Shown in pieces: positions 5,601 through 63,458 of a stretch of 64,000 nucleotides of DNA (position 1 is its first letter; each line of letters opens with the position of its first letter). Source of the DNA: an uncultured Bacteroidales bacterium (GTDB lineage Bacteria; Bacteroidota; Bacteroidia; Bacteroidales; Paludibacteraceae); assembly GCA_902778935.1 (NCBI GenBank), contig CACYZT010000014.1, forward strand, positions 1-64,000, written 5' to 3'. Both the position numbers and the translations under genes were made by a program. The notes beneath the pieces were generated by a model that did no database searches, had not been told where the DNA came from, and was given only the letters and a program-made list of their open reading frames with translations.

Positions 5601-5628
5601 TGTTTAATATTTAATGTTGTAAGATATT
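5601..5628 (+). repeat. Junction tract, TTTAAT-type, between susD-like stop and next start
   Basis: The bases between the SusD stop and the next ATG are mostly made of repeated TTTAAT/TTAATG motifs. This resembles the tandem tracts seen at other stop-to-start junctions in this window. Confidence 0.4.
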
Positions 5629-6864
5629 ATGAAAACAAAGCTTTTATATATAGCTGCTTTGGCATTAGCGGTCGTTTTCTCAGCCTGCGAAAACAATACT
5701 CCGTATGACACACAGTCTCCGGACGATGCGCCGCTGATTCTCAGGCCCTATAATGAGTCCGGCACCGGTTCGTTCACCTATAATTTGGCGAATCCCGATA
5801 CGCCGCTCTATGACTCTGTCACTGTTACTCCGTCCAAGTACACGACGGTGAACTGGTACATCGACGGTACGTTAGTATTCACCGGTTTAAAGATAGAGCA
5901 GACTTTCCTTACCGGCTCTTACGATCTGCTCATCGAGGCCGTTACACAAGCCGGCAAGCGTACCGAACGTAGAGGTTCTGTCACAGTCCATCCCTGCGAC
6001 ACCGACCCGTATTCAGCTGCTCCCGCTGCCGGTCGCCATTGTGTGCCGGGCAACCCCGCTACACTCGATGGTGCGAACCTCACCAAGGTGGATAAGGTCC
6101 TGCTGACGAAAGATATTTATGGCAAGGAGATCGTACATACTATCGTGCCTGATGCGGGTGCAACCGATGCACAACTGACCATCACCTTGCCTGAGACCCC
6201 GGACGGACTGTACTATGTGCGTTTCATGGACACCGAGGGAAAGCTGTACGGTGCTGAGGATATCAATGTGCACAATGTATCCGTCGTACTGGCAGGTTAT
6301 GAAGAGTTCTCGCCTGGCAAAGAATGGACCATCACCGGCGTCAAGCTGGAGAACGTGGCATCCGTCAAAGTAGACGAGACTGTGGTTACCGAATTGACCG
6401 TGACAGCTACTTCTATCACCTTCACCGCACCTGCAGCTGAAGTAGGCGAGCATACGCTCTCTATCCAGAATGCTGACGGCTCCAGCGTGTACTTCATCAC
6501 CGCCGACGGACTGATGGATGTTGCCAAGACGGTTGTCAGCGCGGAAACCACCATCTGGGAAGGTAGTTGCGTCATCAATTGGGGTGACACGAAAGTGGAA
6601 CTGACAGCGGATATGATGAAGGATGTGCCGGTAGGCGCTACGATATATGTGTACTTCACCGTGCCGGAGGCAGAGTATCATGCTTTGCGCATCACAGACG
6701 ACTGGTGGAGTCATGACCTGCTGTCGCAAGTGGACGGTATGGAAGGCCAGCCGAACCCCTACACCTTCGTTTACGATGAAGCAGGTAAAGCGGCAGTTGA
6801 TCAGACAGGAAAAGCCCTTGTTACCGGTTTCGGATTGGAAATCACCAAAGTTACGTTCAAATAA
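5629..6864 (+). CDS. PUL surface lipoprotein with IPT/TIG-type domains (SusE/F position)
   Basis: A 411-residue lipoprotein (MKTKLLYIAALALAVVFSAC). It sits right after SusD, where surface glycan-binding proteins are usually encoded. The chain is made of Ig-like modules. About residues 125-290 look like two IPT/TIG repeats (PGNPATLDGANLTKVDKVLL and GKEWTITGVKLENVASVKV). The last 120 residues form a separate beta domain with aromatic residues (ITDDWWSHDLL) that could bind glycan. I infer a substrate-capture role at the cell surface. There is no enzymatic motif. Confidence 0.85.
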   Translation: MKTKLLYIAALALAVVFSACENNTPYDTQSPDDAPLILRPYNESGTGSFTYNLANPDTPLYDSVTVTPSKYTTVNWYIDGTLVFTGLKIEQTFLTGSYDLLIEAVTQAGKRTERRGSVTVHPCDTDPYSAAPAAGRHCVPGNPATLDGANLTKVDKVLLTKDIYGKEIVHTIVPDAGATDAQLTITLPETPDGLYYVRFMDTEGKLYGAEDINVHNVSVVLAGYEEFSPGKEWTITGVKLENVASVKVDETVVTELTVTATSITFTAPAAEVGEHTLSIQNADGSSVYFITADGLMDVAKTVVSAETTIWEGSCVINWGDTKVELTADMMKDVPVGATIYVYFTVPEAEYHALRITDDWWSHDLLSQVDGMEGQPNPYTFVYDEAGKAAVDQTGKALVTGFGLEITKVTFK

Positions 6865-6884
6865 ATCGTAATTCGTAAATCACT
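6865..6884 (+). repeat. Junction tract ATCGTAATTCGTAAATC before symporter start
   Basis: The stop codon of the upstream lipoprotein (6862-6864) runs directly into two imperfect copies of an ATCGTAA/TTCGTAA motif, which end at the ATG of the symporter. Same style as the other stop-to-start tracts. Confidence 0.5.
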
Positions 6885-8243: not shown

Positions 8244-10014
8244 TATCATTTTTCTCGCATGTGCTTGTGCCCTTTTCACAGGGTGCAAGCACAATGCGTC
8301 TTCAGACATTCGTCTCAACCAGCTCGGCTTCTCACCGATGCAAGAGATGACGGCCACCATTGTGCTCCCTGATTCAACAGCCGAAGCCAATGCCGTTTTC
8401 ATCCTCAATGAAAATAACGACACCGTCTGGAGCGGAGTGCCTGCCGTCACGATGAAAAATCCTATCTCCGGAAAGTCATGCCAGATAGTTGATTTCTCTG
8501 CCCTCGACACCGTTGGCACCTATACGATGTACTTGAAGGACGGCCAAGGCAAAATCTCAAATGTCAAATTTCAAATCTCAAATAGGCCGTACCGTGAATT
8601 AACACGCTCGGCCTTACGTGCCTACTACCACCAGCGCGCATCAATGGCCACCGAGGAACCCTACGCCGAAGGATATGCACGGCCTGCCGGACACCCCGAT
8701 GACCATGTGCTCGTGCATGCCTCAGCAGCCACGCCGGAGCGACCCGAAGGAACGGTGATATCTTCCCCCGAAGGATGGTACGATGCCGGCGATTATAACA
8801 AGTATATCGTCAATTCCGGCTTCACGATGGGCGTATGGTTCTTGGCGTATGAGTTCAACAAGGCGTATTTCGACACGCTCAAGCTGAATATCCCTGAATC
8901 AATCGTAAATCGTCAATCGTCCAATCGTCAATGTCCTGACATGCTGTCCGAGGCGATGTATAACATCCGCTGGATGATGACGATGCAGGACCTGGACGGA
9001 GGCGTGTATCATAAGCTGACAGAACCCGATTTTGAGGGATTCATTCGACCTGACCAATGCAAAAAACCGCGCTACGTGGTGATGAAGACTACCGCTGCTA
9101 CGCTCGATTTCGCAGCCACGATGGCTATGGCTGCTCGTATCTATGCGCCGTTTGACGAAGCGTTCTGTGCGCAGGCCAAGGAAGCAGCCGTAAAAGCTTA
9201 TCAATGGGCACTCGCTCACCCTGCCGTCTATTACGACCAGCCGAAGATGAATGCGCAGTTCAAACCGGAGATAACAACCGGTGCGTATGATGACTTCGAT
9301 GTGAACGATGAGTTCTATTGGGCGGAGATAGAATTGTATCTGCTTACAGGTGACGAGCAATACAAAGCCAATATCGGAAGCCATGCCCGCAATATAGCCA
9401 ACACCCTTGCCCAAGACGGCAAGTATTATCTTCCGGCAACATGGGGCAATGTGGCTGAACTGGCCTATCTCGATCTCCTCATGCATGGCAAGACCGGTGC
9501 CAACGCCCTGCTGGAGCATCTTAAACCATACATTGACGACGTGGAGACCTCCGTCTTCCGCTCGCCCTATGGTAACCGCGAGTCTGATTTCTTCTGGGGC
9601 TGTAACTCTGAGGGCTGCTGCTGGCGAGGCATCGAGTGCCTATACGCATACCGGCTGACGGGCGAAGAGAAATACCGTATCAATGCCGAGCGATGCCTCA
9701 ATTATATCCTGGGACAAAATGCGACGGGGTACTGCTATGTGACGGGCTTCGGTACCAAACCAACTGCGCACCCGCACCACCGTCTCTCTTATTCGCATCC
9801 CAAAGGCACCTTGCCTGGATTCCTGGCTGGAGGACCGAACCCGGCGCAACAGGACGCACAGACGGACGGCGTCAAATATCCGAAGGATGTACCGGCGGAC
9901 GAGAGTTACCTGGACTACCAGCCCAGTTATGCCTCCAATGAGGTTACTATCAATTGGAATGTCACCCTCTTTGCACTGGCAGCCGGCATTGACGCGCTGG
10001 ATGCTCAGCACTGA
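8233..10014 (+). CDS. GH9 family endoglucanase lipoprotein
   Basis: Glycoside hydrolase family 9 cellulase/beta-glucanase. It has a lipoprotein signal (IIFLACACALFTGC, Cys 18), an N-terminal Ig-like cellulase domain (about residues 25-115, IRLNQLGFSP) and the GH9 (alpha/alpha)6 catalytic domain. The catalytic base motif is visible (GWYDAGDYNK, Asp184 and Asp187), as are the substrate-binding HPHHR region and the C-terminal SNEVTINWN motif with the acid Glu570. Two low-complexity insertions derived from tandem DNA tracts lie in frame: KISNVKFQISN at about 108-118, at the Ig/catalytic linker, and SIVNRQSSNRQ at about 223-233, between catalytic helices. Last gene of the PUL. Confidence 0.96.
   Translation: MRNSIIFLACACALFTGCKHNASSDIRLNQLGFSPMQEMTATIVLPDSTAEANAVFILNENNDTVWSGVPAVTMKNPISGKSCQIVDFSALDTVGTYTMYLKDGQGKISNVKFQISNRPYRELTRSALRAYYHQRASMATEEPYAEGYARPAGHPDDHVLVHASAATPERPEGTVISSPEGWYDAGDYNKYIVNSGFTMGVWFLAYEFNKAYFDTLKLNIPESIVNRQSSNRQCPDMLSEAMYNIRWMMTMQDLDGGVYHKLTEPDFEGFIRPDQCKKPRYVVMKTTAATLDFAATMAMAARIYAPFDEAFCAQAKEAAVKAYQWALAHPAVYYDQPKMNAQFKPEITTGAYDDFDVNDEFYWAEIELYLLTGDEQYKANIGSHARNIANTLAQDGKYYLPATWGNVAELAYLDLLMHGKTGANALLEHLKPYIDDVETSVFRSPYGNRESDFFWGCNSEGCCWRGIECLYAYRLTGEEKYRINAERCLNYILGQNATGYCYVTGFGTKPTAHPHHRLSYSHPKGTLPGFLAGGPNPAQQDAQTDGVKYPKDVPADESYLDYQPSYASNEVTINWNVTLFALAAGIDALDAQH
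8550..8585 (+). repeat. In-frame TCAAAT tandem tract inside GH9 gene
   Basis: Four copies of TCAAAT plus one variable base (TCAAATG, TCAAATT, TCAAATC, TCAAATA). It encodes the linker between the Ig-like and catalytic domains. Confidence 0.75.
8898..8933 (+). repeat. In-frame CAATCGT tandem tract inside GH9 gene
   Basis: Three CAATCGT-type units, one AAATCGT and a terminal CAATGT. It encodes a Ser/Asn/Arg/Gln-rich insertion in the catalytic domain. The same heptamer recurs at 17173-17216 and 28957-28984. Confidence 0.8.
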
Positions 10015-11693: not shown

Positions 11694-11729
11694 AGTTATT
11701 TACGATTTACAATTTAACAGTTTAACAAT
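11694..11729 (-). repeat. Junction tract of GTTAAATT/GTTAAACT units
   Basis: On the minus strand the TAA stop of hypA is itself part of the first repeat unit (CGTTAAATTGTTAAACTG), followed by AAATTGTAAATCGTAAAT up to a few bases before the next ATG. The tract fills the 36-nt gap. Confidence 0.65.
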
Positions 11730-12083
11730 TTAACGAGATTGTGGCACCACAATCTCCTTTATCTCCACTTCGTTGCCTCGGAGCAGCCATGTCTTCTCGC
11801 TGCCGCAATGCGGACAGGTCTTGCCGTGCGCCACGGTCGGATAGTCCTTGCCGCAACCGTCGCAATGCGTCACGGCAGGGATGGGTTCAATAATCAGTTC
11901 GCAGCCATTAAGCATCTCTTCTTTGTCCGCCGCCCAGCGCCAGCAGTCGGTCAGGTACTCCGGCACGATAGTGCTCACCTCGCCGATGTTCATCACCACC
12001 GATGAGACGTGCGTCACACCGTTCTCTTCTGCGGCTTTCTTGACGTCCCGAATAATATAGAATACGATGCCTAATTCGTGCAT
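11730..12083 (-). CDS. hypA: HypA-like nickel/zinc metallochaperone
   Basis: A 117-residue HypA/HybF family protein. The N-terminal MHE triad needed for nickel binding in the family is present (MHELGIVFYI). The zinc site shows two Cys pairs, CDGCG near residue 74 and CPHCG near residue 92. In characterised systems HypA hands Ni2+ to a [NiFe]-hydrogenase or urease with HypB. Here no hydrogenase structural gene or hypC-F is in the window. It lies 30 nt downstream of the Fe-S flavoprotein gene, and the gap is filled by a repeat element. It could therefore serve another nickel enzyme, or a hydrogenase encoded elsewhere. Confidence 0.9.
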   Translation of the reverse strand: MHELGIVFYIIRDVKKAAEENGVTHVSSVVMNIGEVSTIVPEYLTDCWRWAADKEEMLNGCELIIEPIPAVTHCDGCGKDYPTVAHGKTCPHCGSEKTWLLRGNEVEIKEIVVPQSR

Positions 12084-12131: not shown

Positions 12132-14963
12132 TATCTTCCCTGCTCGCTTAATCATATACGGCAATATACCGTCGAACTTATTCTCCGAGGTGCGCATGAT
12201 GCTTGCTTCGGGGTGCTCGCGATGCAGATGGATGGCGTCAAAAGCACACTTGGTGGTGCATATACCGCAACCGATACACCGGTTCTCATCCACTACCGAA
12301 GCGCCGCAACTCAGGCAACGCGCAGTCTCTTTCTTCACCTGCTCTTCGGTCAGCGTACCGTGGTATTCCTCGAATTTCGTCTTCGTCGGCACCACTCCTG
12401 GGTCCTGACGGCTACCATTGTCATATTGCTTTACCACGATATCCTGTTTGTTGAGCTCGATGAAATCTCTATGGTTACGACCGATGGTCATGTGTCCGTG
12501 CTGAACATAGCGATGCAGACTCTCCGCCGCCTCCTTACCGGTTGCGATGGCATCAATGGCGAATTTCGGACCTGTGAACACATCGCCGCCAACGAAGATA
12601 TCGGGCTCTGCCGTTTGGAGCGTCAGCTTGTCCGCTATCGGATATACACCGCGGAAGAACTCCACTTTGGTGTCCTTCAGCAGGTCCTTCAGCACCACGG
12701 TCTGACCGATGGCGAAGATAACCATATCCGCCTCCAGCGTAATCGTCTCATTCTCATCGAACTTCGGCGCAAAGCGGTGTTGCTCGTCAAATACCGACAC
12801 GCACTTCTTGAAGGTAATACCCGTAACCTTTAACCCGTCACCTGTAACCTCTTTCGGTCCCCAACCGGGATTCAGAACCACGCCGTCTTCGCGTGCTTCC
12901 ATGCGTTCCTCGAGCGAAGCAGGCATGATATCTTCCGTCTCCAGCGAGAGCATCGTCACTTCGCTTGCCCCGCTACGTTTGGCCACACGCGCCGCATCGA
13001 TAGCTACGTTTCCGCCGCCTACGACCACCACTCTTTTATCTTTGATTTTTTTCTGCCCGCAATTCGCCTCATGCAGGAAATCGATGGCGGTTGTCGTGCC
13101 TTCTAAGTCCTCTCCCGGGATACCCGGCAGACGGCCACCCTGGCAACCGATCGCTACGTAGAATCCTTTGTAACCCTGCTCGCGCAATTGGGCAATCGTG
13201 ATGTCCTTACCCACTTCCACGCCGCATTGGATATCTACGCCTATCTCGCGCATGATATCTATCTCAGCATCAATCACAGCCTTGTCCAGTTTGTACGACG
13301 GGATGCCGTAGCGCAGCATACCGCCGGGTTTCTCATTGCGCTCAAATACGGTCGGTTTATAGCCCATCGTCGCCAGATAATACGCGCAACTCAGACCGCT
13401 CGGACCGCCACCGATGATGGCTATCTTCTCCTCCCATCGGTCTTGCACGTTGGAGCATATATTCACCTCCGGCACAAAGCGCGTCTCGGCATGCAGGTCT
13501 TTCTCCGCAATGAATTTCTTCACGGCATCGATAGCCACCGCGCGGTCTATCGTACCACGCGTACAAGCGTCCTCGCAACGGCGGTTACATATACGTCCGC
13601 ACACCGCTGGGAACGGGTTCTCGCGTTTGATGAGTTCAAGCGCCTCGGTGTACTTGCCTTCTGCCGCTTTCTTGAGATAACCCTGCACGGCGATATGTGC
13701 CGGACAAGCGGTCTTACAAGGCGCGGTACCGGTCGGATAGCAGTTGATGCGGTTCTTATCGCGATAGTCCTCTGTCCATTTGTCTTCACCCCATTTGGTT
13801 GCGTCCGGCAACTCCTGCTTCGGGTAAGTCTGAGGTCCGCTCTTCGTGCATAGTTTCTGACCAAGCTTAACCGCTCCCGCCGGACAGTACTCTACGCACC
13901 GACCGCACGCCACGCAGTTCTTCGGGTCCACTTCCGCTACGTACGCGCTGCGCGACATATTAGGTGTGTTAAACAACTGCGACGTACGCAAAGCATTGCA
14001 AATCTTCACGTTGCAGTTGCATATGGCGAAAATCTTTCCCTCGCCGTCGATATTCGTCACCTGGTGAACGAAACCGTGGTCTTCGGCTTTCTTAAGAATA
14101 GCCATCGCCTCATCGTAGGTGATGTCGTGGCCTCGTCCTGTCTCGCGCAGGTAGTCCGCCATGTCGCCCACGCCGATACACCAGTCGCGATAGTCATCCG
14201 CGCAGCCTTCATCCAGTTTCTTACGGCCGTAGCGGCACGAACAAATACCTACGCCGATATGTCCTTCGTATTTCTTGAGCCAATAGGAGATATGCTCGAT
14301 ATCGATGCTTTGGTTCTCCATCGAGATGGCTTTCTCTACAGGAATGACGTGCATACCGATACCCGAACCGCCCATCGGAACCATCGGGGTAATCTTCTCC
14401 AGCGGCAGGAAGGTCATTCGTTCGAAGAACATCGCCAACTCCGGATGACGGTCCATCAGCTCGGTATTCATATTCGTATATTCGGCACTACCCGGCACGA
14501 ACATCGGCACCCAATACTCGCGCTCTTCACGCGTGAAATGGGACCTCTCTTTGTCCATTGTCCATTGTCCATTGTCCTTCTTCGGATATTTATCCCCGTA
14601 GTCGTATTCCAGCATACCGAAATACGCCAGTTTGTCCAGCAGTTCATCGAAACTCTTATCGTCCGGCGTGTAGTGTTTCTCCGCGTTCATCGCGTGTAAC
14701 TGCGCGTACGTGTGGTGCTTGCGTACCTTAAAGAAATTACCGGGCAGCATGTCCAGCAGCAGGTCCAGCGACGCTTCACGCGTCACAGCGTCCATCTCGT
14801 CCTCAAAGATGCACGCCAAACCCCAATACTCCGGGGCATCGGTCGTCATCTTGATTTTACCGGGTACACGGTCCGTCACATGACGAACGAACTTCAACAA
14901 TTTCGGATTCGGATTCTTGTCCCCTTTGTGCTTCGGGACAAACTTGTCTGACATTTTTGGCAT
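12114..14963 (-). CDS. 949-residue Fe-S flavoprotein, GltD-type NAD(P)H oxidoreductase with extra domains
   Basis: Multidomain FAD oxidoreductase. Residues 1-340 form a Cys-containing domain of unknown family (GICSCRYG near 240, AICNCNVKIC near 314). A 4Fe-4S ferredoxin motif CVACGRCVEYC lies at 350-360. A GltD/NfnB-like core follows: a Cys-rich Fe-S region (C408 to C467), FAD site GGGPSG at about 518 and NAD(P) site GGGNVA near 660. A C-terminal ferredoxin motif CIGCGICTTKC is near 905. This is close to the glutamate-synthase small subunit and NADH-dependent ferredoxin:NADP reductase plan, with no glutamate synthase large subunit beside it. It sits between hypB and hypA. An in-frame tract (14551-14579) adds KDNGQWTMDKE at about residue 129. 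I infer electron transfer between NAD(P)H and ferredoxin or a membrane partner. Confidence 0.85.
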   Translation of the reverse strand: MPKMSDKFVPKHKGDKNPNPKLLKFVRHVTDRVPGKIKMTTDAPEYWGLACIFEDEMDAVTREASLDLLLDMLPGNFFKVRKHHTYAQLHAMNAEKHYTPDDKSFDELLDKLAYFGMLEYDYGDKYPKKDNGQWTMDKERSHFTREEREYWVPMFVPGSAEYTNMNTELMDRHPELAMFFERMTFLPLEKITPMVPMGGSGIGMHVIPVEKAISMENQSIDIEHISYWLKKYEGHIGVGICSCRYGRKKLDEGCADDYRDWCIGVGDMADYLRETGRGHDITYDEAMAILKKAEDHGFVHQVTNIDGEGKIFAICNCNVKICNALRTSQLFNTPNMSRSAYVAEVDPKNCVACGRCVEYCPAGAVKLGQKLCTKSGPQTYPKQELPDATKWGEDKWTEDYRDKNRINCYPTGTAPCKTACPAHIAVQGYLKKAAEGKYTEALELIKRENPFPAVCGRICNRRCEDACTRGTIDRAVAIDAVKKFIAEKDLHAETRFVPEVNICSNVQDRWEEKIAIIGGGPSGLSCAYYLATMGYKPTVFERNEKPGGMLRYGIPSYKLDKAVIDAEIDIMREIGVDIQCGVEVGKDITIAQLREQGYKGFYVAIGCQGGRLPGIPGEDLEGTTTAIDFLHEANCGQKKIKDKRVVVVGGGNVAIDAARVAKRSGASEVTMLSLETEDIMPASLEERMEAREDGVVLNPGWGPKEVTGDGLKVTGITFKKCVSVFDEQHRFAPKFDENETITLEADMVIFAIGQTVVLKDLLKDTKVEFFRGVYPIADKLTLQTAEPDIFVGGDVFTGPKFAIDAIATGKEAAESLHRYVQHGHMTIGRNHRDFIELNKQDIVVKQYDNGSRQDPGVVPTKTKFEEYHGTLTEEQVKKETARCLSCGASVVDENRCIGCGICTTKCAFDAIHLHREHPEASIMRTSENKFDGILPYMIKRAGKILFSKK
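14551..14579 (-). repeat. In-frame GTCCATT tandem tract inside Fe-S flavoprotein gene
   Basis: Three GTCCATT units plus a partial GTCCTT on the + strand. It encodes the surface-like stretch DNGQWTMDKE. Confidence 0.75.
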
Positions 14964-15022
14964 GGTATTTACGATTTGTTTGATTTTTCTGTATTTCGAT
15001 ATATCGGTATTTCAATATTTCG
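14964..15022 (-). repeat. Junction tract of CGAAATAT-type units between hypB and flavoprotein
   Basis: On the minus strand the TAA stop of hypB is followed by repeated CGAAATATTGAAATACCGAT and CGAAATAC motifs, then an A-rich leader to the ATG. Confidence 0.6.
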
Positions 15023-15778
15023 TTATTTTGCTTTCCAATTCTTAACTTCCTTCAGCAGCCACTCTGCGAAAGCCTCCACACCTTCGCCTGTCTTCGCGCA
15101 GATAGGAATGACCGTGGCTTTCGGGTTGCGCATATGGATATATTCTTTGCATTTCTCAAGGTCGAAATCAAAGTACGGCATCACGTCAATCTTATTGATG
15201 ACCACTACGTCGCAAACGCTGAACATCAGCGGATATTTAAGCGGCTTGTCATGTCCTTCCGGCACGGATAGTATCATGGCGTTCTTCACCGCGCCGGTAT
15301 CGAACTCCGCCGGACACACCAGATTCCCCACGTTCTCCAATATCACCAAGTCCGGCTGGCTTTCTTCTTTGAGCAAAGCGGTCTTTTGTCTTTGAGCGCC
15401 AGCGGTCATTTGTCTTTGAGCGCCGGCGGTCTTTCTACTTTCTACTAAAAGGGCTTGCAATCCCTGCTTCGTCATCTCCGCATCAAGATGACACATACCG
15501 CCGGTATGCAACTGAATAGACTCCACACCGGTGGCGTCTTTTATCTTGACGGCATCCACATCGCTGTCGATATCGGCTTCCATAACCGCAATACGGATTT
15601 TGTCCTTCAGGCGGTTGATAGTCTGGATAAGGGTGGTCGTCTTGCCGCTTCCGGGCGCAGACATCAGATTTAGAAGAAAAACTCCGCGTTCTTTTAATTC
15701 GCCGCGCAACGCGTCTGCATCGCGGTCATTGGCTTCAAAAACGCTCTTTTTGAGCTCAATTACTTTGACTTCGTCCAT
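15023..15778 (-). CDS. hypB: HypB-like nickel-insertion GTPase
   Basis: A 251-residue SIMIBI GTPase of the HypB family. The P-loop is GSGKTTT (43-49), the G-domain metal site GGMCHLDA (Cys96, His97) is intact, and NKID is the base-recognition motif. The N-terminal CxxCGC high-affinity nickel motif of E. coli HypB is absent, as in many HypB proteins. A low-complexity insert (TAGAQRQMTAGAQRQ at about 117-131) is encoded by a 24-bp tandem DNA unit. It is the first gene of the operon and has a well-formed promoter at 15819-15849. GTP hydrolysis would drive nickel delivery with HypA. Confidence 0.93.
   Translation of the reverse strand: MDEVKVIELKKSVFEANDRDADALRGELKERGVFLLNLMSAPGSGKTTTLIQTINRLKDKIRIAVMEADIDSDVDAVKIKDATGVESIQLHTGGMCHLDAEMTKQGLQALLVESRKTAGAQRQMTAGAQRQKTALLKEESQPDLVILENVGNLVCPAEFDTGAVKNAMILSVPEGHDKPLKYPLMFSVCDVVVINKIDVMPYFDFDLEKCKEYIHMRNPKATVIPICAKTGEGVEAFAEWLLKEVKNWKAK
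15378..15452 (-). repeat. 24-bp tandem repeat in frame inside hypB
   Basis: Two and a half copies of a 24-bp unit (GCGGTC, WTTTGT, CTTTGAGCGCC) at 15378-15401, 15402-15425 and 15426 onward. The right end matches the junction element at 12087-12131. Confidence 0.85.
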
Positions 15779-16676: not shown

Positions 16677-17773
16677 GGCTGCGGCTACAAATAGCACTGT
16701 GGCTCGAGAGCCTGAGGAGGCGTAATCTGAAGACACTACACCCTCTGCGCCAGCTCTTCTGGGAATCGACATTACGATGTAATGTTCATTGTCTCCATTG
16801 TGGCAGCGATTGTGTGGCGTCCGTAGAGACGCCCGACATGCCGGCAGAGGATTTTCTCCATGTCCTGGATACGGAAATAACTCCACACGTCAACCCCAAC
16901 GAAGTGCTCATCATCATCTCCGGCGGTGAACCCCTCATGCGTAAGGACCTGGCTGAGGTCGGCAGAGCACTCATGCAACGCGGTTATCCCTGGGGCATGG
17001 TTACCAACGGACTGGCGTTGACGGCGAGTCGTTTCCGCGAACTGACGGACGCCGGACTGCGTTCGCTCACCATCTCCTGCGACGGACTCGAAGACGACCA
17101 TGTTTGGCTTCGCCAGCATCCACTCGCTTTCGAAGGTGCGACACGGGCCATACACCTCATCGCTGACTATAACAGCCAATCGTCCAATCGTCAATCGTCC
17201 AATCGTCCAATCGTCTGGGATGTCGTCACCTGCGCCAACCGGCGTAACATCGACCATCTGCCCGCTATCCGCGATATGCTATGGAGTTTGGGTGTTCGCG
17301 ACTGGCGCGTGTTCGGCATCGACCCGATGGGGCGGGCTGCCTCCAATCCCGAGTTGCTGCTTGATGACAACCAGTTCCGCTACCTGATGGATTTCATTGC
17401 CGCTGAACGCGAAGCGGGACGTCATGTCTCTTATTCCTGCGAAGGCTACCTCGGAACCTACGAAGGTCGCGTCCGTGACCATCTCTACCAGTGCGCCGCA
17501 GGTATCAGCGTGGCGTCCATCCTCATCGACGGCTCTATCTCTGCCTGCACCTCCATCCGCGGCAAATACTATCAAGGGAACATCTATCGGGATTCGTTCT
17601 GGGAGGTGTGGGAAAATGGCTTCAAGCCCTACCGCGACCGCTCTTGGATGCGGGACATCGAACCATGCAAGGACTGCAAGGTTTTCTCTTTCTGCGAAGG
17701 AAACGGTATGCACCTCCGCCGCGAAGACGGCTCTCTCATGCTCTGCCATCTGCAACGCATAGGGCAGAAGTAG
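16673..17773 (+). CDS. Radical SAM/SPASM enzyme of rSAM-lipoprotein system
   Basis: A 366-residue radical SAM enzyme. The [4Fe-4S] SAM-cluster motif is CNVHCLHC (Cys36, Cys40, Cys43), followed by the GGEP motif (about residue 84) that binds SAM. A C-terminal SPASM domain holds further Cys residues (YQCAAG, ISACTS, CKDCKVFSFC, LMLC) for auxiliary clusters. The family fits TIGR04133 as I remember it, predicted to modify the co-encoded lipoprotein; the chemistry is not known to me. An in-frame CAATCGT tract encodes SQSSNRQSSNRP at about 168-179. The start overlaps the lipoprotein stop (ATGA-type), so the two proteins should be made together. Confidence 0.9.
   Translation: MRLRLQIALWLESLRRRNLKTLHPLRQLFWESTLRCNVHCLHCGSDCVASVETPDMPAEDFLHVLDTEITPHVNPNEVLIIISGGEPLMRKDLAEVGRALMQRGYPWGMVTNGLALTASRFRELTDAGLRSLTISCDGLEDDHVWLRQHPLAFEGATRAIHLIADYNSQSSNRQSSNRPIVWDVVTCANRRNIDHLPAIRDMLWSLGVRDWRVFGIDPMGRAASNPELLLDDNQFRYLMDFIAAEREAGRHVSYSCEGYLGTYEGRVRDHLYQCAAGISVASILIDGSISACTSIRGKYYQGNIYRDSFWEVWENGFKPYRDRSWMRDIEPCKDCKVFSFCEGNGMHLRREDGSLMLCHLQRIGQK
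17173..17216 (+). repeat. In-frame CAATCGT tandem tract inside radical SAM gene
   Basis: Five copies of CAATCGT, most spaced by an extra C. It encodes a Ser/Gln/Asn/Arg-rich insertion between core strands of the enzyme. Same heptamer as in the GH9 gene and at 28957-28984. Confidence 0.85.
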
Positions 17774-27775: not shown

Positions 27776-28957
27776 ATGATTGGTATCTTTAATGATAATT
27801 TCCCGCCTATATTGGACGGTGTTGCTTTAACGGCGCAAAACTATGCGTATTGGCTGCATGAGAAGGGCTACGACGTGCGGGTTATCACGCCTTATGCCCC
27901 GAAAGCGAAGAAGGTAATCAACGCTGCGCCTTATCCTATCAACAGGTTTATTTCTATTCCTATTCCTTTCCGTCATCCGTATCGATATGGTATGCCTTAT
28001 ATCGATGTTCCCTTCATGCGTAACTGGCGGAAGATGAAGTTCGAACTCGTGCATACTCATTGTCCGTTCACTACTGCCGACCTCGCGTACAGCGCTGCGC
28101 AGAGCCAGCATATTCCTCTGGTGGCTACCTTCCACTCCAAGTACCGTCAGGACTTTGAGCACAACGTGAAAAGCAAGTTCATCGTCGATTGCATGGTGCG
28201 TCATATTATCCGGGTCTTCGAGCGTGCGGATGAAGTGTGGATCCCGCAGGCGGCTGTTGAGCCTACGCTCCGCGAGTATGGATTCAAGGGACATGTAGAG
28301 GTGGTCGAGAATGGTAATGACTTCTATACACCGAAGGCGCAAATCGAAATGATGCGAAAGGAAATGCGTGAGGAGTTGGGCTTGACGCCCGATGAGACCA
28401 TGCTCCTTTTCGTCGGACAGCATATATGGGAGAAGAATATCGGATTTATCCTCGATGCACTCGCGTTGATAAAAGAATTGCCATTCCATCTGTTCATGGT
28501 CGGTACGGGTTATGCGGTGCGTGAGATACGACTGAAGATTCGTGCTCTGGGCTTGCAGGACCACGTGACCTTGCTTGGAAACATCCATGACCGCGAGCGT
28601 CTGAAGAAAATCGATGCAGCGGCCGACCTGTTCCTCTTCCCCTCGCTCTACGATAACGCTCCGCTGGTAGTCCGCGAAGCGGCGGCCCTGCATACACCGG
28701 CGCTTATGCTACAAGAATCAACGGCGGCAGAGGTTATCACGCCGGATGTGAACGGATTCTTGACGCCTAATGATGTGCGTGCGTACGCCAATCAGATAGC
28801 CTATCTCATGGAGCATCCGGATATGCTGACGCGCGTGGGTGACAAAGCGTCCAAGACCATCTCCCGTTCCTGGGAGAATGTGATTGAAGAGGTTATCCTC
28901 CGTTACCGCGACATCCAGCAGGCCTATAAACTCAAACATGGTATCATCGTACCATAA
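27776..28957 (+). CDS. GT4-family glycosyltransferase
   Basis: A 393-residue GT-B fold glycosyltransferase. The N-terminal domain begins MIGIFNDNFPPILDGVALTA with a Gly-rich acceptor loop and HTHCPFTTADL. The C-terminal donor domain has the family motif LLFVGQHIWEKN and the GT4 E-x7-E-like region around PLVVREAAALHTPAL, which binds the sugar nucleotide. There is no signal peptide, so it acts on the cytoplasmic face. It is first in an operon with a small EamA-like transporter and an LTA-synthase-like enzyme, which suggests glycolipid or surface-polymer synthesis. Donor and acceptor cannot be read from sequence. Confidence 0.9.
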   Translation: MIGIFNDNFPPILDGVALTAQNYAYWLHEKGYDVRVITPYAPKAKKVINAAPYPINRFISIPIPFRHPYRYGMPYIDVPFMRNWRKMKFELVHTHCPFTTADLAYSAAQSQHIPLVATFHSKYRQDFEHNVKSKFIVDCMVRHIIRVFERADEVWIPQAAVEPTLREYGFKGHVEVVENGNDFYTPKAQIEMMRKEMREELGLTPDETMLLFVGQHIWEKNIGFILDALALIKELPFHLFMVGTGYAVREIRLKIRALGLQDHVTLLGNIHDRERLKKIDAAADLFLFPSLYDNAPLVVREAAALHTPALMLQESTAAEVITPDVNGFLTPNDVRAYANQIAYLMEHPDMLTRVGDKASKTISRSWENVIEEVILRYRDIQQAYKLKHGIIVP

Positions 28958-28987
28958 TCGTCAATCGTCAATCGTCAATCGTCAATG
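28957..28987 (+). repeat. CAATCGT junction tract from glycosyltransferase stop to next start
   Basis: Four perfect CAATCGT units follow the TAA stop (28955-28957), and the ATG of the next gene (28985) lies in the fifth, altered unit (CAATG). Confidence 0.85.
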
Positions 28988-31835: not shown

Positions 31836-34676
31836 TTATAACGAAAATCTAAAGGTAATTTTAACGCCGTTACGGCCCCATGCGCCGATACGACGGCGAC
31901 CATGTATCATAACCGGGTCTCCGTTCTCGTCCACAGCCGGTTGATAGCCTAAGGTTGGACGGTTCGGGTCCACGAGTTCCATCTTCTGAATCAGGTACGG
32001 CAATTCGTAGTCGTTGTACGTCAAGCGGCGCACATAGTCGATGCGGATGAACTTGAATATATTCTCAAATCCCGCCGTCAGCTCCATGTACGGCAACTTG
32101 CCTATCGGTGAACTGGTCCGATAACCGTCCCTTATATATCCGTCGTGGTCGAAGGCGTTATCGACAATACCGTTCTCCCATGGCGTGTGCGGGAAGTCGT
32201 ACAAACCGCCGGTACCTTCCAGATAGGGATTGTTTTTCTTCGTCAGACCGCCATAAACGCCGCTGAACGATACCACGCCGCGCAACTTGAGCTTGTTGAT
32301 GCCCGGAATACGGTTCAATATCCAGCCTTTGAAGAAATAGGTCGCGTAGAGCGCCACATATTCGTCCATCATAAACTCCATCGGCTTCATCTGGTTGAAG
32401 GCGCGTTGGGCGAGGAAGATACTCGTACTGGTCTCCGGTATATACAGTTTGGTGAACGGCGCTTTCTGCCATAACATACCGGTCTGGATACGCAGGTCGA
32501 GGTGACCGAAGGCGGAGAACCAGAACCGTTTGTCGAAGAGGAATTCCGTCCTGTTGTAGAAGAATCCGTCTCCGCCGTTATGGCGGTCGTCCAGATAGCC
32601 TACGTAGTGCGTCAGCTTGAAGGTCGGCGCATCTTTCTCGATGGCAAACGGACTGCGGTTACCCATTCGGTCGATATAGATGCGACTGCCGGGAGAGTAC
32701 TCCAGTTCCACCATTCCCTCATAGTTGCGGTACGAACCGATATTGGTGAACGATTTGTTCCATGTCGAGTCAATCGGGTCCAGCTTCCAGTTCACTTTTT
32801 GGTAATCCAGCACACCTGCCGCCTCGTTGTTGGAGAAATCAAAGGAGGTACGGATGGATAGCTTGTTCTGCCATTCCTTCATATATTCGGCTTTCGCATG
32901 GAATACATATTGGGCGAAAGGCATCGTGGGCGTGCTTGTCGGGATAGACGCTAAGATATGGTCGCGGCGGATGATATTGGTGTTTTGTCCCGGTTCCTCC
33001 ACGTCGTACTGTGCGCTGAATTGGATATGGTGTCGCAGTCCGTCGTACGGCTGTGTCTTGTGCTTGTCGAAAGTATAGACGAGCGTAGCGTTGTATTTCG
33101 GGCGCAGGTCGGTAGTTCCGAACGCTACATACCCGCGGAAGAAAATCTGGTTGTGCAACTGAGCGGTACTCGTTCCGCCTACGCGAATACGAACGCCCTC
33201 GAGCATGTTCCAGCTTACGAAGTTGTATATCGGACCGATATCGAACTTACTCTCGTCCAGGTCTCGCGCAGGAGTCGTAGCCACATATTCGGAGGTGATG
33301 GCATTCACCGTCGCTATCAAACTGGCGATACGCGGGTTAGCCGTCGCTTCATGAACCAAGTCATATACGGAGCTCTCATAGCGTGTGAGCGGTTCCGGAC
33401 GAAGTGTATCCCACGCCGCGGCACCGAACCGCTGAGCCGTCGAGTCGTTCATCTCCACCTCGTCGGCGGTGAGAGCGGAGAACGTCTCGCGAGGAATAGG
33501 TGTTTCCATGTCCCAGTCGGTATAGATCTTCGTCTGACGGGCGAGCATACCTCTTTTGTTGTTCAGCACATAGAATTTCGCGAACGTCGTCGTTCTGTCC
33601 GGCGCCCATAGACCGTTCTCCAACTGTCTGTAACTATGCTCCACCGAATAGTTGCTCACGAAATTGAGGTTGATATCCGGCGGCACGTTGATGGCGTATT
33701 TCTTCAGACGGAACGTGCTGTCATTGACGATATACAGGTGGCCCGTGAAACCGTAACTCTCGGAGTTCACCGGCACAAACGCCAGGTCGATACACGGATA
33801 ACCATCCACCATGATGGTATCCATGATATAGTATTGGTAGAAAGTCACGGCAAGAGTGGAGGAGAGCGGCGATACAAAGCGGTTGAACAGCAGGTTCATG
33901 TTGTTGTCATTGATATCGACGTCCTTGAAGATAGCATTCACGTTCTCCTGGAATGAACCTTGCGATACCAGGTCTTCCACACCGAACACACGTTTCTTGT
34001 CTAATATCTTCTTCTCGCGGTGCGGTTTCTTCTGGTAGTATTCCGAGTTCAGGTGCTCGCGGATGGAGATGGTCACGTTCGGATAAACGCCTGTGGTGTC
34101 AATGTATTTCTGTATGAAACTGAATTGTTTCCAGAACGGCTTTTGCCAATTGACCTTTATGTTATCCAGCGCGAACGACATGCGGGAGTAACTGTGCGCG
34201 GTAAAGAAGTCGGCGGAGTTGACGCAGAACGAGTCCTTGCGGGCAATCACGTTCTTAATCAGCTCAACCGCAGGGTTACCTTTGCGTTTGTAGTCGCGTT
34301 TGCGGTTCTTGGGCGTCACCACGATATCCTGCAGACCGTACACATCCGGCGTCAGCTTCACCTTCACGTTCGTCCGGTTCTGACCCTTACGGAGCGTTAG
34401 CATCTCGGTCTTGTAACCTAACATCTGGAAATTCAGCGTGTTATACCCCGCTGTGTTACTGATGGTGAAGTTACCGTCTATATCCGAAGTGGTACCTATA
34501 TCCGAAGGGATCATACCTTTGTTGGTGGTCGATTTGAGGAAGTAAATCTGCACGAAAGGCAGCGTTTCTCCCGTGTCACCATCCACTACTACGCCCGATA
34601 TACTCGTGCGCACCTCTTGCGCCATCACCGTCCCGGCGAAGCACAGAAATAATACTATGTACCTTAAATATCTCAA
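31836..34676 (-). CDS. DUF5686 and carboxypeptidase-regulatory-like domain protein
   Basis: A 946-residue exported protein. The start is TTG 34676, the only plausible one, giving the signal peptide MRYLRYIVLFLCFAGTVMAQ; no ATG lies upstream in frame before a stop. A carboxypeptidase-regulatory-like beta-sandwich follows (SGVVVDGDTGETLPFVQIYF), then the long DUF5686 region, which resembles a large outer-membrane barrel (C-terminal GVKITFRFSL). The family is widespread in Bacteroidetes and its function is unsettled. The TTG start and its upstream region are part of a TCAAATCT tandem tract. Next gene: a barrel protein 3 nt downstream. Confidence 0.88.
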   Translation of the reverse strand: MRYLRYIVLFLCFAGTVMAQEVRTSISGVVVDGDTGETLPFVQIYFLKSTTNKGMIPSDIGTTSDIDGNFTISNTAGYNTLNFQMLGYKTEMLTLRKGQNRTNVKVKLTPDVYGLQDIVVTPKNRKRDYKRKGNPAVELIKNVIARKDSFCVNSADFFTAHSYSRMSFALDNIKVNWQKPFWKQFSFIQKYIDTTGVYPNVTISIREHLNSEYYQKKPHREKKILDKKRVFGVEDLVSQGSFQENVNAIFKDVDINDNNMNLLFNRFVSPLSSTLAVTFYQYYIMDTIMVDGYPCIDLAFVPVNSESYGFTGHLYIVNDSTFRLKKYAINVPPDINLNFVSNYSVEHSYRQLENGLWAPDRTTTFAKFYVLNNKRGMLARQTKIYTDWDMETPIPRETFSALTADEVEMNDSTAQRFGAAAWDTLRPEPLTRYESSVYDLVHEATANPRIASLIATVNAITSEYVATTPARDLDESKFDIGPIYNFVSWNMLEGVRIRVGGTSTAQLHNQIFFRGYVAFGTTDLRPKYNATLVYTFDKHKTQPYDGLRHHIQFSAQYDVEEPGQNTNIIRRDHILASIPTSTPTMPFAQYVFHAKAEYMKEWQNKLSIRTSFDFSNNEAAGVLDYQKVNWKLDPIDSTWNKSFTNIGSYRNYEGMVELEYSPGSRIYIDRMGNRSPFAIEKDAPTFKLTHYVGYLDDRHNGGDGFFYNRTEFLFDKRFWFSAFGHLDLRIQTGMLWQKAPFTKLYIPETSTSIFLAQRAFNQMKPMEFMMDEYVALYATYFFKGWILNRIPGINKLKLRGVVSFSGVYGGLTKKNNPYLEGTGGLYDFPHTPWENGIVDNAFDHDGYIRDGYRTSSPIGKLPYMELTAGFENIFKFIRIDYVRRLTYNDYELPYLIQKMELVDPNRPTLGYQPAVDENGDPVMIHGRRRIGAWGRNGVKITFRFSL

Positions 34677-34721
34677 ATCTTCAAATCTTCAAATCTTCAA
34701 ATCTTCAAATCTTCAAATCTG
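34671..34721 (-). repeat. TCAAATCT tandem tract between DAHP synthase and DUF5686 gene
   Basis: About six 8-bp units. On the minus strand the TGA stop of the DAHP synthase (34713-34715) is in the first unit and the TTG start of the DUF5686 gene (34674-34676) is in the last. Confidence 0.88.
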
Positions 34722-35792: not shown

Positions 35793-35849
35793 TCAGTCTG
35801 TGTTCTGTCAGGCGAAGCCGGTCTGTGTTCTGTCAGGCGAAGCCGGTCT
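35786..35849 (-). repeat. 64-bp repeat copy B, at the 5' end of DAHP synthase
   Basis: Direct repeat of 35379-35442. It spans from the TAG stop of the upstream lipoprotein gene to the last possible start region of the DAHP synthase and carries the in-frame TGA at 35793-35795. Confidence 0.9.
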
Positions 35850-37087: not shown

Positions 37088-37208
37088 TGCCTCTTGTCTC
37101 CGTACTCTCCGCCTCTTTTCCGCGTTCTCTCCAGCAGGTCCCAAAGGGTGCTCAAAGGATGATGAAAGGGTGCTCAAAGGTTGCTTATGCCTTTGTCAAA
37201 ATTTTCTG

Positions 37209-40103: not shown

Positions 40104-40739
40104 ATGAGAAAAATTTGTATTCTGCTGTTTGTATGCAGTTTGCTGCCTTTGGTCACTCAGGCAGAGACGAAAGAGACCCGTAGTGCGCTCAAACATGAGG
40201 TGCGTATCGGTTACGGCGACCCGATGTTCGAGACGATGCGCTGGAAAGATGAACCCACCAAACTTGGTGTGCCCATGAATGCGCGTCAACACTACCGCTA
40301 TACCGGACATCTCTACGGCGAGTATATGTACCGCGTCAACTCATGGCTCGGCGTGGGCGGTCAAGTCGATTTCGGAGCTACGATGTTTGACTACAACTCC
40401 TATCAGCTCGACAACCGGGGCAACCAGTTCCTTGCGTCCAGCGAGTACCGCTATTTCTACGACGTGTGTATCATGCCCTCCGTGCGTTTCACTTATTTCC
40501 ACCGCGATTGGGTCAACCTCTATTCGGGGCTGCAACTCGGTCCGGGTATCCATGCCGATTACCGCGGACGTTGTGAAGTGGGCGCTGCGTTCGGACTGAC
40601 AGCGCTTGGCGTGTCTGTGGGACGGGACCACTGGTTCGGTACTGCCGAGTTCGGCGGACTGAGTAACATCCAGTCCCTCACCGCCATCTATCTGATTTGG
40701 ACCAAATGGTTTAATATCTCCGTCGGATATAGATTTTAA
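40104..40739 (+). CDS. Outer-membrane beta-barrel protein
   Basis: A 211-residue exported protein (signal peptide MRKICILLFVCSLLPLVTQA). The rest is amphipathic beta-strands with Tyr and Phe (YTGHLYGEYMYRVNSWLGVG), ending in WFNISVGYRF, a typical barrel end. It lies 49 nt after the TonB receptor and is probably co-transcribed. Family not identified. Confidence 0.7.
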   Translation: MRKICILLFVCSLLPLVTQAETKETRSALKHEVRIGYGDPMFETMRWKDEPTKLGVPMNARQHYRYTGHLYGEYMYRVNSWLGVGGQVDFGATMFDYNSYQLDNRGNQFLASSEYRYFYDVCIMPSVRFTYFHRDWVNLYSGLQLGPGIHADYRGRCEVGAAFGLTALGVSVGRDHWFGTAEFGGLSNIQSLTAIYLIWTKWFNISVGYRF

Positions 40740-40777
40740 GGATTTGAAGATTTGAGGATTTGAAGATTATGAAGATT
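40739..40777 (+). repeat. GATTTGAA/GATTATGAA junction tract with duplicated start codons
   Basis: The TAA stop (40737-40739) runs into about three GATTTGAA-type units and two GATTATGAA units. The last units supply in-frame ATGs at 40769 and 40778 and a TTG at 40760. This is the reverse complement of the unit at 34671-34721. Confidence 0.85.
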
Positions 40778-42082
40778 ATGAAACGCAATATATTTTTAGT
40801 TAGCATACTGGTTCTGGCGTTCGTTTCCTGTCAGGTGGACAAGAAAGACTACACTTCGTTTGTCAAGGACGCCGCAGGGTATCATGTGATTAGCGACGGT
40901 GAAGTCAATCTGGACAACCAGTTCCCCGTTTGGGCGGACCAGATGGGTAATGTGCCTTCCGATGTTGATCCGTGTGACCCGGACGGTTATAACCAGGTGG
41001 AAGGCAAATCGACCTTCATGCAGATGTTCTCGCCGTTGATGAACATGATTACGTACGCCACGGTGCACCAGATCGTCGGCACGTATCAGTCGGAGTACAA
41101 AGGTCTGCCGATCATCCTTTCGGGTAACATGTATGTGCCGCGTTCGAAGAAATGCCGTGGTCTGATTATGGCATGCCATTATACCTACGCAGCCCTGAGC
41201 GAGTCGCCTTCGCAAGGGCCGACCCTCTCTGCGCTCTTGGCGACCAAAGGCTATGCAGTCGTGGACGCGGACTTGGTAGGTTTCGGCGTTACCTATCAGA
41301 TGGTACACCCCTATCTCGATAAGTTGGCTACAGGACAAGCCATCGCCGATTTCGGACGCCTGGCAAGACCCTTCCTCGAAGCAAACGGTTATACCTTCGA
41401 AACCGACGATATCTTCCTCTTCGGTTACTCGCAAGGCGGTCATGGCGCGGTGGCTACACAGGAGTTCATCGAGTCGCACCCCGATTATTACGCCGACCTG
41501 CCTTTGACCAAAGTGTTCTGCGGCGGTGGTCCGTATGACCCGAAGGTGACGTACGATGTGGCGAAAGCGACTGATGTTATCGGTTTTCCGGCTGTCGTAC
41601 CGATGTTCCTGCAAGGTACTATCTATGCCAACGACCTCAATGACCCGACGCTCGCTATGCCTATTACCGAAGAAGATTTCCTCTCGGACGAGATGCTCAA
41701 GGATGACCGCTATAAGACATGGCTCAACAGCAAGGCTTATACCATGGACCAGGTCAACCTGCTTATGAAAAATATAGGTTGCGGCAAGTTCTCTACTATC
41801 CTCCGCCCCGAGGCGATGGAGGAGAGCTATCCGCAGAACACTATCCTCTTCGCCAAACTCAAAGAGAACGCCACTACCGATTTCTGCCCTGTCACGCCGA
41901 TGTATATCTTCCACTCCAAGGGCGATGATGTGGTCACGTTTGAGAATGCGGAGATTCTTCAGCGCTCCTTCCGCGAACTCGGCACCGACGAGAGTAAGAT
42001 TGAGTACGATTTCGATGACTACGGTTCGCATCGTTCCGGTCTGCTCAAGTTCCACATGAAAGTGCTCAAAATGCTCAATTAG
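40778..42082 (+). CDS. Alpha/beta-hydrolase lipoprotein (secreted lipase/esterase-like)
   Basis: A lipoprotein (MKRNIFLVSILVLAFVSC) of about 434 residues from the ATG at 40778; repeat-derived in-frame starts lie 9 and 18 nt upstream. The nucleophile elbow is FGYSQGGHG (Ser). The late catalytic residues are likely Asp in FHSKGDDVVTF and His in YGSHRSG. The overall plan resembles secretory lipase/dipeptidyl-peptidase-type hydrolases. The substrate is unknown. It may belong to the same transcription unit as the TonB receptor and barrel protein, which would suggest an ester-linked ligand (inference). Confidence 0.8.
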   Translation: MKRNIFLVSILVLAFVSCQVDKKDYTSFVKDAAGYHVISDGEVNLDNQFPVWADQMGNVPSDVDPCDPDGYNQVEGKSTFMQMFSPLMNMITYATVHQIVGTYQSEYKGLPIILSGNMYVPRSKKCRGLIMACHYTYAALSESPSQGPTLSALLATKGYAVVDADLVGFGVTYQMVHPYLDKLATGQAIADFGRLARPFLEANGYTFETDDIFLFGYSQGGHGAVATQEFIESHPDYYADLPLTKVFCGGGPYDPKVTYDVAKATDVIGFPAVVPMFLQGTIYANDLNDPTLAMPITEEDFLSDEMLKDDRYKTWLNSKAYTMDQVNLLMKNIGCGKFSTILRPEAMEESYPQNTILFAKLKENATTDFCPVTPMYIFHSKGDDVVTFENAEILQRSFRELGTDESKIEYDFDDYGSHRSGLLKFHMKVLKMLN

Positions 42083-48129: not shown

Positions 48130-49253
48130 TGAGAAAGTTTTTCACCCTTATGCTTGCAGCCCTCACATTCGCTGCTTGCACAAATTCAAATGAGAAAATG
48201 AGTAAATGTGAAAATAACACATGGGACAAAGTCTTCCCGCTTAGTGAGAAAGTAAACCATAAAAAGGTGAGTTTCCAAAACCAATACGGCTTCACCTTGG
48301 TGGCAGATCTTTACACGCCGAAGGCAAATGACAAATCACAAATCACAAATCACAAATACGCCGCTATCGCGGTGTCCGGTCCTTTCGGTGCAACGAAAGA
48401 GCAGAGTTCGGGTCTGTATGCGATGAAGATGGCGGAGCGCGGGTTTGTGGCTTTGGCTTTTGATCCGTCTTTTACCGGCGAGAGTTCAGGTGAACCGCGT
48501 CGTACGGCGTCGCCGGACATCAATACCGAGGACTTTATGGCGGCGGTGGATTATCTGAGCAAACTGCCCGAAGTGGATGCTGATAGAATAGGTATCATCG
48601 GAATATGCGGATGGGGCGGAATAGCGCTCAATGCAGCTGCAGCAGATACGCGTATCAAAGCGACAGTCGCTTCGACGATGTACGACATGACGCGTGTCTC
48701 CGGTAACGACTACAACGATGCTTTCGACGACGAGCAGTGGCGTCACAGGAATCGCGAGAACCTCTCCCAACAGCGTCTTGCTGACCCGCAAGCCATGGCT
48801 GGCGGTGTGTTAGATACCGTTCCTCCGCAAGCTCCTCGTTTTGTGCACGACTATTACGATTACTACAAGACCCCGCGTGGCTACCATGCGCGTAGCGGTA
48901 ACTCGAATGACGGTTGGCGTGTCATAGGCACGCAGGCTTATGCCAACAGCCGTTTCCTCTATTACATCAACGAGATCCGTTCTGCTGTTCTGATCATGCA
49001 CGGCGAGGATGCGCACAGCCGTTATTTCGGCGAAGCGGCATACCACTACATGGTGGACGGCAAGGCAGACGGCTACAAGACCGTGGTCGCTCCGAATCCG
49101 TGTCCTGAGAACAAGGAACTGCTTATTATCCCCGATGCCTCGCATTGCGACCTCTATGACGGCGGCTATACCGAACCGGCAGGAAAAGGTGAACCCAAGA
49201 ACCTCATTCCATGGGACAAGTTGGCTGAGTTCTTCAATAAGAATTTAAAATAG
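48129..49253 (+). CDS. Exported alpha/beta hydrolase (dienelactone-hydrolase-like) lipoprotein
   Basis: A 374-residue lipoprotein (FFTLMLAALTFAAC) with an alpha/beta-hydrolase fold. The elbow is GICGWGG, so Cys replaces Ser as the nucleophile, as in dienelactone hydrolases. A late His lies in DASHCDLYDGG. An in-frame tract of CAAATCA units (48330-48358) encodes DKSQITNHK in an early loop. Last gene of the Fe-ADH operon. A short remnant of a second copy of its 3' end is at 63348-63424. Confidence 0.87.
   Translation: MRKFFTLMLAALTFAACTNSNEKMSKCENNTWDKVFPLSEKVNHKKVSFQNQYGFTLVADLYTPKANDKSQITNHKYAAIAVSGPFGATKEQSSGLYAMKMAERGFVALAFDPSFTGESSGEPRRTASPDINTEDFMAAVDYLSKLPEVDADRIGIIGICGWGGIALNAAAADTRIKATVASTMYDMTRVSGNDYNDAFDDEQWRHRNRENLSQQRLADPQAMAGGVLDTVPPQAPRFVHDYYDYYKTPRGYHARSGNSNDGWRVIGTQAYANSRFLYYINEIRSAVLIMHGEDAHSRYFGEAAYHYMVDGKADGYKTVVAPNPCPENKELLIIPDASHCDLYDGGYTEPAGKGEPKNLIPWDKLAEFFNKNLK
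48330..48358 (+). repeat. In-frame CAAATCA tandem tract inside hydrolase gene
   Basis: Three to four copies of an 8-bp unit (ACAAATCA form) giving SQITNHK in the protein. Confidence 0.8.
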
Positions 49254-63424: not shown

Positions 63425-63458
63425 TATATCTCAAATATCAAATATCCAATATCCAATG
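63425..63458 (+). repeat. CAAATAT/CCAATAT junction tract
   Basis: Four imperfect 7-8 bp units between the hydrolase remnant's TAA and the ATG at 63456, which lies in the last unit (CCAATGT). Confidence 0.8.

Follow-up and report, generated by a model that had tools for sequence, protein, structure and literature searches.

Short tandem arrays with 7- or 8-bp units between and within genes of a Paludibacteraceae genome: genome-specific units and possible spread by block copying

Short tandem arrays with units of 7 or 8 bp were found to be real and common between and within genes of an uncultured Paludibacteraceae bacterium, and they are not a junction device. Each genome owns a dialect of units over many loci, and about an even chance is given to the reading that the arrays form a population spreading by block copying and slippage and filtered by tolerance. 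The arrays were noticed in a stretch of 64,000 nt (hereafter the window), which sits inside the source genome (2.18 Mb, 41 contigs). Scattered bacteria carry heptamer repeats, on whose origin there is no agreement; one reported set has been linked to G-quadruplexes and another to translational regulation. In a clade whose units differ between genomes and change within a few per cent divergence, the origin becomes directly testable. The arrays also suggest how stop-start overlaps open, how start codons are replaced, and by what route low-complexity peptides get into conserved proteins.

According to the original prediction, a short tandem tract fills the gap at eleven gene junctions of the window. 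A tandem array with a TRF score of at least 40 was detected at seven of the eleven, and the claim did not extend to the rest, where arrays were weak or not detected. Six of the seven (junctions 11694, 14964, 28957, 34671, 40739, and 63425) belong to the 7/8-bp class, and the array at 35786 has a 25-bp unit and is of another class. Weak arrays only (score 33) were present at 5601, 6865, and 11339, and near 12087 no tandem array was found by TRF at a score of at least 30. The description of junction 28957 was exact (TAA stop at 28955-28957, array at 28956-28986, ATG at 28985). At 34671, both codons had been placed within the tract, and array 34673-34720 does span the stop of gene 34713-35732 and the TTG start of ORF 31836-34676. 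The arrays at junctions of the window were as follows.

28956..28986, plus strand: AATCGTC array (4.4 units) filling the junction of the glycosyltransferase and EamA/SMR-like genes, with TAA at its first bases and ATG at its last
34673..34720, minus strand: TCAAATCT array (gene strand AGATTTGA, 6 units) spanning the stop codon of the gene for DAHP synthase/chorismate mutase and the TTG with which the DUF5686 gene starts
40731..40782, plus strand: AGATTTGA-type array 3′ of the outer-membrane beta-barrel gene 40104-40739
63431..63465, plus strand: TCAAATA array (5 units) reaching into the flavodoxin-like gene, which starts at 63456
11698..11734, minus strand: ATTTAACA/ATTTACA array between the minus-strand genes 11730-12083 and 11415-11693
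14991..15028, minus strand: TATTTCGA-type array at the junction of 15023-15778 and 12114-14963
6862..6881, plus strand: weak TAAATCG array (2.9 units, score 33), AATCGT-like, at the 6864/6885 junction
35796..35849, no strand assigned: 25-bp unit (2.2 copies), a different repeat class, excluded from the 7/8-bp counts

The same class of array was also present inside genes of the window, at seven positions missed in the original prediction.

8552..8583, plus strand: AAATCTC array in the GH9 glycosyl hydrolase gene 8233-10014, at about residues 107-117, between two Pfam matches
8899..8936, plus strand: CAATCGT/CCAATCGT array in the GH9 gene 8233-10014, within the GH9 match
12819..12849, minus strand: ACCTGTA-type array (period 7/14) in the oxidoreductase gene 12114-14963, within Pyr_redox_2
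14551..14577, minus strand: TTGTCCA array (3.9 units) in the oxidoreductase gene 12114-14963, outside Pfam matches
17176..17215, plus strand: CCAATCGT array (5 units) in the radical SAM gene 16673-17773, directly 3′ of the Radical_SAM match
48188..48215, plus strand: AAATGAGA array close to the N-terminal end of the alpha/beta-hydrolase-like gene 48129-49253
48325..48357, plus strand: CAAATCA array (4.7 units) in the alpha/beta-hydrolase-like gene 48129-49253, at the front edge of the Pfam matches

Five of these seven lie outside or at the edge of Pfam matches, and those at 8899 and 12819 lie within one. In phase-variation SSRs, copy number switches gene expression within a population; the genes flanking arrays in the window are of mixed function. 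The window had no match in Rfam at gathering thresholds. One of its open reading frames, at 17995-27591, is 3198 codons long.

Arrays with a period of 6-16 and a score of at least 40 numbered 21 in the window, whereas 20 order-3 Markov simulations averaged 0.95 and gave at most 3; the tracts are more than chance. That the arrays are an assembly artefact is practically excluded. The genomes are mostly metagenome assemblies, in which repeats are prone to mis-assembly, but the arrays lie within the contigs of many separately named assemblies and are mostly 20-50 nt long, which is shorter than usual sequencing reads.

The census was made in a 790-kb sample (36%) of the source genome. Gene calls came from a home-made caller based on a codon model, so that CDS edges are approximate (the choice of start changed once), and array counts vary with the detector (TRF score of 30, 36, or 40, or lag-7/8 scoring; one count was made without duplicates). 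In total, 132 arrays with 7- or 8-bp units were found, of which 61 were in same-strand gaps, 60 in called CDS, 6 in convergent and 4 in divergent gaps, and 1 at an edge. By period, 7 and 8 stood out (61 and 36 arrays in 790 kb), with more arrays at 14-16 and a class at 11; the first 390 kb held 24 period-7 and 18 period-8 arrays, and five order-3 Markov simulations gave none. Array density per base was 9.7 times higher between genes than inside them, and divergent gaps were depleted (4/71 arrays, P=0.003). Tandem 7-bp units at many loci above chance, a preference for same-strand gaps, and scarcity in divergent gaps are the characters of dispersed bacterial heptamer SSRs, and all were observed here. 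The listed arrays had no common sequence outside their units; a mobile element (IS, MITE, or REP) would be expected to bring terminal inverted repeats, a target duplication, or a transposase. A fixed insert size was rejected, as a length mode at 29-35 bp was present in genes and absent between genes. Outside the genus the arrays were rare, with 1.1 per 100 kb in twenty stretches taken from the order's other families versus 12.3 in the source genome. Within it, no period-7/8 array was found in three members (G012, G027, and G028; 32-40 kb sampled), and 20 further genomes had 0-8 short-unit arrays per 20-kb stretch.

Other repeats were recorded separately. Arrays of 11-bp units such as AGCACCCTTTG and TCAATCTCGGA form a class of their own (36 at a score of at least 40 in 790 kb; for example, window 37142-37185 and L014:2237-2285), and 37 of the 46 placed arrays of 11 and 22 bp were outside called genes. 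GC-rich 16- and 25-bp units of the AGACCGCTTCGCTGAC sort occurred in the window (34985-35023 and 35796-35849) and in L006, L009, and L016, partly in called genes. In L151 (8482-9663), gaps of 114-115 nt contained inverted pairs of arrays, GAAGATTT-like on the stop side and AAATCTTC-like on the start side. The commonest 10-mers of the source-genome sample were TACCTTTGC-like and resemble the −7 promoter element of Bacteroidetes.

For arrays inside genes, a usable orthologue was available in 49 of 119 cases. Compared with the best orthologue, the protein with the array was longer by at least 7 residues in 8 cases and by 1-6 residues in 17, equal in 14, and shorter in 10; among the 14 without a length difference, some orthologues carry the array too. 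Clean insertion of a whole array in a gene is therefore the minority. The radical SAM protein with the CCAATCGT array at 17176 was 7-11 residues longer than four of the five orthologues compared. Separately, orthologues of 34713-35732 (L058, L067, L068, L071, L081, and L102) had different 7-bp arrays at the same position near the C-terminal end, which encode K/E-rich stretches such as KLKIKNEKLKI.

Two junctions were followed in relatives. The named relatives sharing the glycosyltransferase were Bacteroidales MAGs; rumen or other gut samples were the source of many, and many bore the label Paludibacteraceae. For the 28957 junction, 48 of 63 entries (62 of 80 relatives plus the window), namely those in which the downstream gene was found, were kept; for the 34671 junction, 66 were searched and 21 of the 59 loci with a downstream-gene hit were kept, in which the upstream neighbour was on the same strand within 400 nt. 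By the lag-7/8 score, the 28957 junction had an array in 6 of 48 loci with five different units, namely CAATCGT (window), ACCAATC (two relatives, 95% identical), ATAATTG, GGATGAAA, and GGTTAYA, and the 42 array-free loci had 2-48 nt to the same anchor. The 34671 junction had an array in 11 of 21 loci by the same score, and the ten array-free loci had at most 11 nt between aligned ends in seven and 30-60 nt in three; L075, which has a TATTCTT array by TRF but whose lag-7/8 score of 8 falls below the threshold, was counted as array-free. The units here included AGATTTGA (window), AGATAAG/AGCTGAG (three relatives), AATTGAG-like (L068 and L072), AAGTTGA, and AAAGATGA, some alike across relatives and some not, and sister genomes of 91-94% DNA identity had three different units by TRF, that of L075 being weak. 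By eye, an ATGA overlap was present at this junction in L065, and a start codon (TTG or ATG) lay within the repeat tract in the window, L072, L074, and L075. Variation in unit number at the same junctions, looked for in relatives, proceeded in whole units: L056 and L084 differed at the 28957 junction by exactly 35 bp, or five units; between L075 and L072 the difference was 21 bp. At about four sites where one relative has the array and another does not, the empty relative already had a few bases that match the unit (by eye). As a separate observation, L089 has a hairpin-like insert of about 36 bp within a GAGAGTT array at the site aligned to L130 17273, and the array is uninterrupted in L130.

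The edges of the tracts had been held to coincide with stop and start codons, and this was tested in the 790-kb sample. Among the 61 arrays in same-strand gaps, the stop was touched within 6 nt either way by 31, the start by 29, and both by 17. Under uniform placement in the same gaps (n = 61), 33 arrays were at or beyond the 6-nt limit of the start versus 31.5 (sd 2.5) expected, and 38 were at or beyond that of the stop versus 31.5 (sd 2.6) expected. The coincidence with start codons is no more than chance and thus what short gaps give, so that the claim fell for starts and kept a slight, weak excess for stops. Targeting of junctions was rejected under this null, apart from the excess at stops; the accompanying suggestion of a generating mechanism is supported by shared unit families, block copies, and fast turnover.

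Whole gaps with an array were longer than array-free gaps (P=9e-5), and after subtraction of the array the median gap was 26 nt (41 junctions) versus 21 nt in array-free gaps (471 junctions; P=0.78). As the gap minus the array resembles an ordinary gap, the arrays are additions and not required spacers. Selection as leaders or spacers for translational coupling, as proposed in the original prediction, or as targets of an RNA-binding regulator, as proposed by MacGregor for TAACTGA, is for us an improbable explanation. It could draw on the frequent inclusion of a stop and/or start codon in the arrays, the slight excess at stops, the depletion between divergent genes, the sense orientation of AATCGT arrays in same-strand gaps (19/23, P=0.003), and the A/G/T-rich gene strand of the 34671 arrays with TGA or TAA in most units (by eye). 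However, AATCTT arrays had no sense bias (6 sense, 9 anti), by which a general orientation rule was rejected; the many array-free orthologous junctions, often with very short gaps, the variation of units at one junction among relatives, and the 60 arrays within CDS likewise argue against selected spacers.

Unit dialects were compared by counting overlapping tandem pair matches, which are not arrays. The source genome had 177 AATCGT pairs (83+94), against 0+1 for the reversed control. Two further members of the genus had 69 and 58, and the pairs were absent from 11 of the 41 genomes of the genus; reversed controls gave 0-3 per genome. AATCTT pairs peaked in G033 (91), with the reversed control above the pattern in G018 (10 vs 1) and G022 (13 vs 1); TTGTCC pairs peaked in G003 (53); and CTGAC pairs numbered 28, 43, and 18 in G065-G067 and 0 in the source genome. 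The units found at the 34671 junction of L072 (GAATTGA) and L074 (TTGAAAG) were each commonest in the genome carrying them there, yet common in sisters: GAATTGA had 69 pairs in G065, 53 and 20 in sisters, and 1 in the source genome, and TTGAAAG had 52 in G066, 17 and 11 in sisters, and 0 in the source genome. The test is accordingly not clean, as GAATTGA pairs number 53 in G066, whose junction has TTGAAAG, and TTGAAAG pairs number 17 in G065; for one junction-unit count, the reversed control is the same repeat in another phase and is uninformative. Within genomes, 9.6% of array pairs shared units versus 4.5% between genomes, with a maximum of 7.0% in 200 label shuffles, and several unit families coexist within one genome.

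Exact strings of at least 23 nt were shared by 88 pairs among 151 of the genome's own arrays, of which the first 14 pairs were listed. Regular strings such as (CAAATCTT)n need no copying to be shared, and the longest string in common (45 nt) extends past the array and resembles a match between related genes; for this reason, irregular strings alone count. Among the pairs listed, exact irregular strings of 30-36 nt occurred at separate loci with different printed flanks, including an irregular 34-mer found within a gene of L009 and again in L010, the 8-nt flanks differing between the two; a 32-mer was common to two loci of G034. In the G033 list of shared strings, one pair (L158 and L060) is a single place entered under two names. 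Successive cores of AATCGT arrays have one or two bases between them, and the spacing alternated between 7 and 8 in 44 of 56 steps versus 27.7 in a global and 37.1 in a within-array shuffle (P=0.006 for the latter). Linker triples common to pairs of AATCGT arrays numbered 11 versus 2.6 expected (P=0.001), and 27 of 42 arrays ended after the same three bases, AAT. The end phase was less sharp elsewhere (AATCTT, 7/16 at one phase; TTGTCC, 7/12; CTGAC, 18/26). Shared irregular strings, linkers, and phase would not be expected from independent slippage at local seeds.

Ordinary slippage at each site, with replication machinery setting steps of 7-8 bp, a genome-specific mutational taste for words, and no copying between sites, is considered unlikely on these grounds and because unit families occur at many loci of one genome and are rare or missing elsewhere. 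Whole-unit changes in length agree with slippage, the 29-35 bp mode in coding sequence fits three units added to one seed, and the 14 equal-length proteins point the same way, though some of their orthologues share the array. A heptamer excess is also reported for many bacteria and has been explained by the footprint of the polymerase (Mrazek 2007, as cited in excerpts of PMC4679880 and PMC4692102). Of the 41 genomes, 40 had a MutS_V match, G025 and G030 giving only weaker or split ones, and loss of mismatch repair therefore does not explain array richness in general. Neither MutS_V loss nor RVT_1 presence tracked array richness when counts were compared. Telomerase-like addition, in which a reverse transcriptase copies RNA-templated units onto broken ends, would make units specific to each genome and fix the end phase. 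The preferred end phase, the genome-specific units, and the one RVT_1 match in the source genome are in its line, but several unit families per genome, RVT_1 matches in only 11 of 41 genomes, and none in the pair-rich G033, G034 (97% complete), and G003 (96%) make it highly improbable.

Under block copying with slippage, new arrays would arise mainly by copying a block of an existing array elsewhere in the genome, through template switching or templated repair probably begun at a few bases of microhomology and presumably without a dedicated enzyme, and array length would then shift by whole units via slippage. Because existing arrays would serve as templates, each genome would drift to its own unit set. 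Most insertions in genes would be lost, and in-frame, stop-free ones would persist in tolerant protein segments; same-strand gaps would be most tolerant, and an array there may come to carry the stop or start codon. Members of the Bacteroidetes naturally lack Shine-Dalgarno sequences, according to excerpts of PMC6847099, and this may make leaders tolerant of array insertions. Copying from donor to recipient is read from patterns, with no single event caught, and growth of some arrays in place from a resident unit (L075 to L072) counts against copying as the sole route. A bolder and rather doubtful reading is that the arrays are self-propagating DNA without a gene of its own, any short array templating new ones elsewhere, with dialects that spread and replace each other; if this is true, gene junctions including stop and start codons are rewritten and in-frame peptides inserted by such DNA.

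The statement that no such family had been described was too strong. The short tandemly repeated repetitive (STRR) heptamers of cyanobacteria, which we take to be a related kind, are tandem heptamers like the arrays here. No description of genome-specific heptamer dialects or of block copying was found in full-text searches on repeats that covered mostly papers outside subscription journals. Heptamer repeats near starts and stops, mostly in same-strand gaps, are described in excerpts of PMC4679880 and PMC4692102. TAACTGA direct repeats occur in Beggiatoaceae, some cyanobacteria, and five Bacteroidetes (MacGregor 2015, PMC4679880, in excerpt), among which Paludibacter propionicigenes carries two sets of such heptamer repeats; TAACTGA itself was not among the units listed for the source-genome sample. 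Like the arrays here, these repeats have 7-bp units, mostly in low copy number, are mostly intergenic and often by start or stop codons with some inside ORFs, and are strain-specific, indels between two close strains being mostly 7-nt steps. Unlike them, the present units change at the same junction and intragenic arrays are about as numerous as those in same-strand gaps; that study, as excerpted, followed one unit across distant groups, whereas here many units differ between genomes of one genus.

The GGGNATC repeats of Xanthomonas and Nostoc (Rehm 2015, PMC4692102, in excerpt) are likewise genome-wide heptamers, mainly between aligned ORFs and scarce between divergent ones, vary in length between relatives, and often lie near stops or starts. 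They are G-rich and quadruplex-forming, whereas the median GC of the arrays here was 0.30 and no GGG is present in the main units AATCGT, AATCTT, and TTGTCC, so that quadruplex formation is an unlikely reason for them. The tandem repeats of Borg elements (Schoelmerich 2023, PMC9879509, in excerpt) resemble the present arrays in being fast-evolving, independently formed, about half in ORFs, and often flanked by partial repeats. Borg units are perfect and in ORFs divisible by three, whereas the units here are imperfect, of 7 or 8 bp, and common to several loci.
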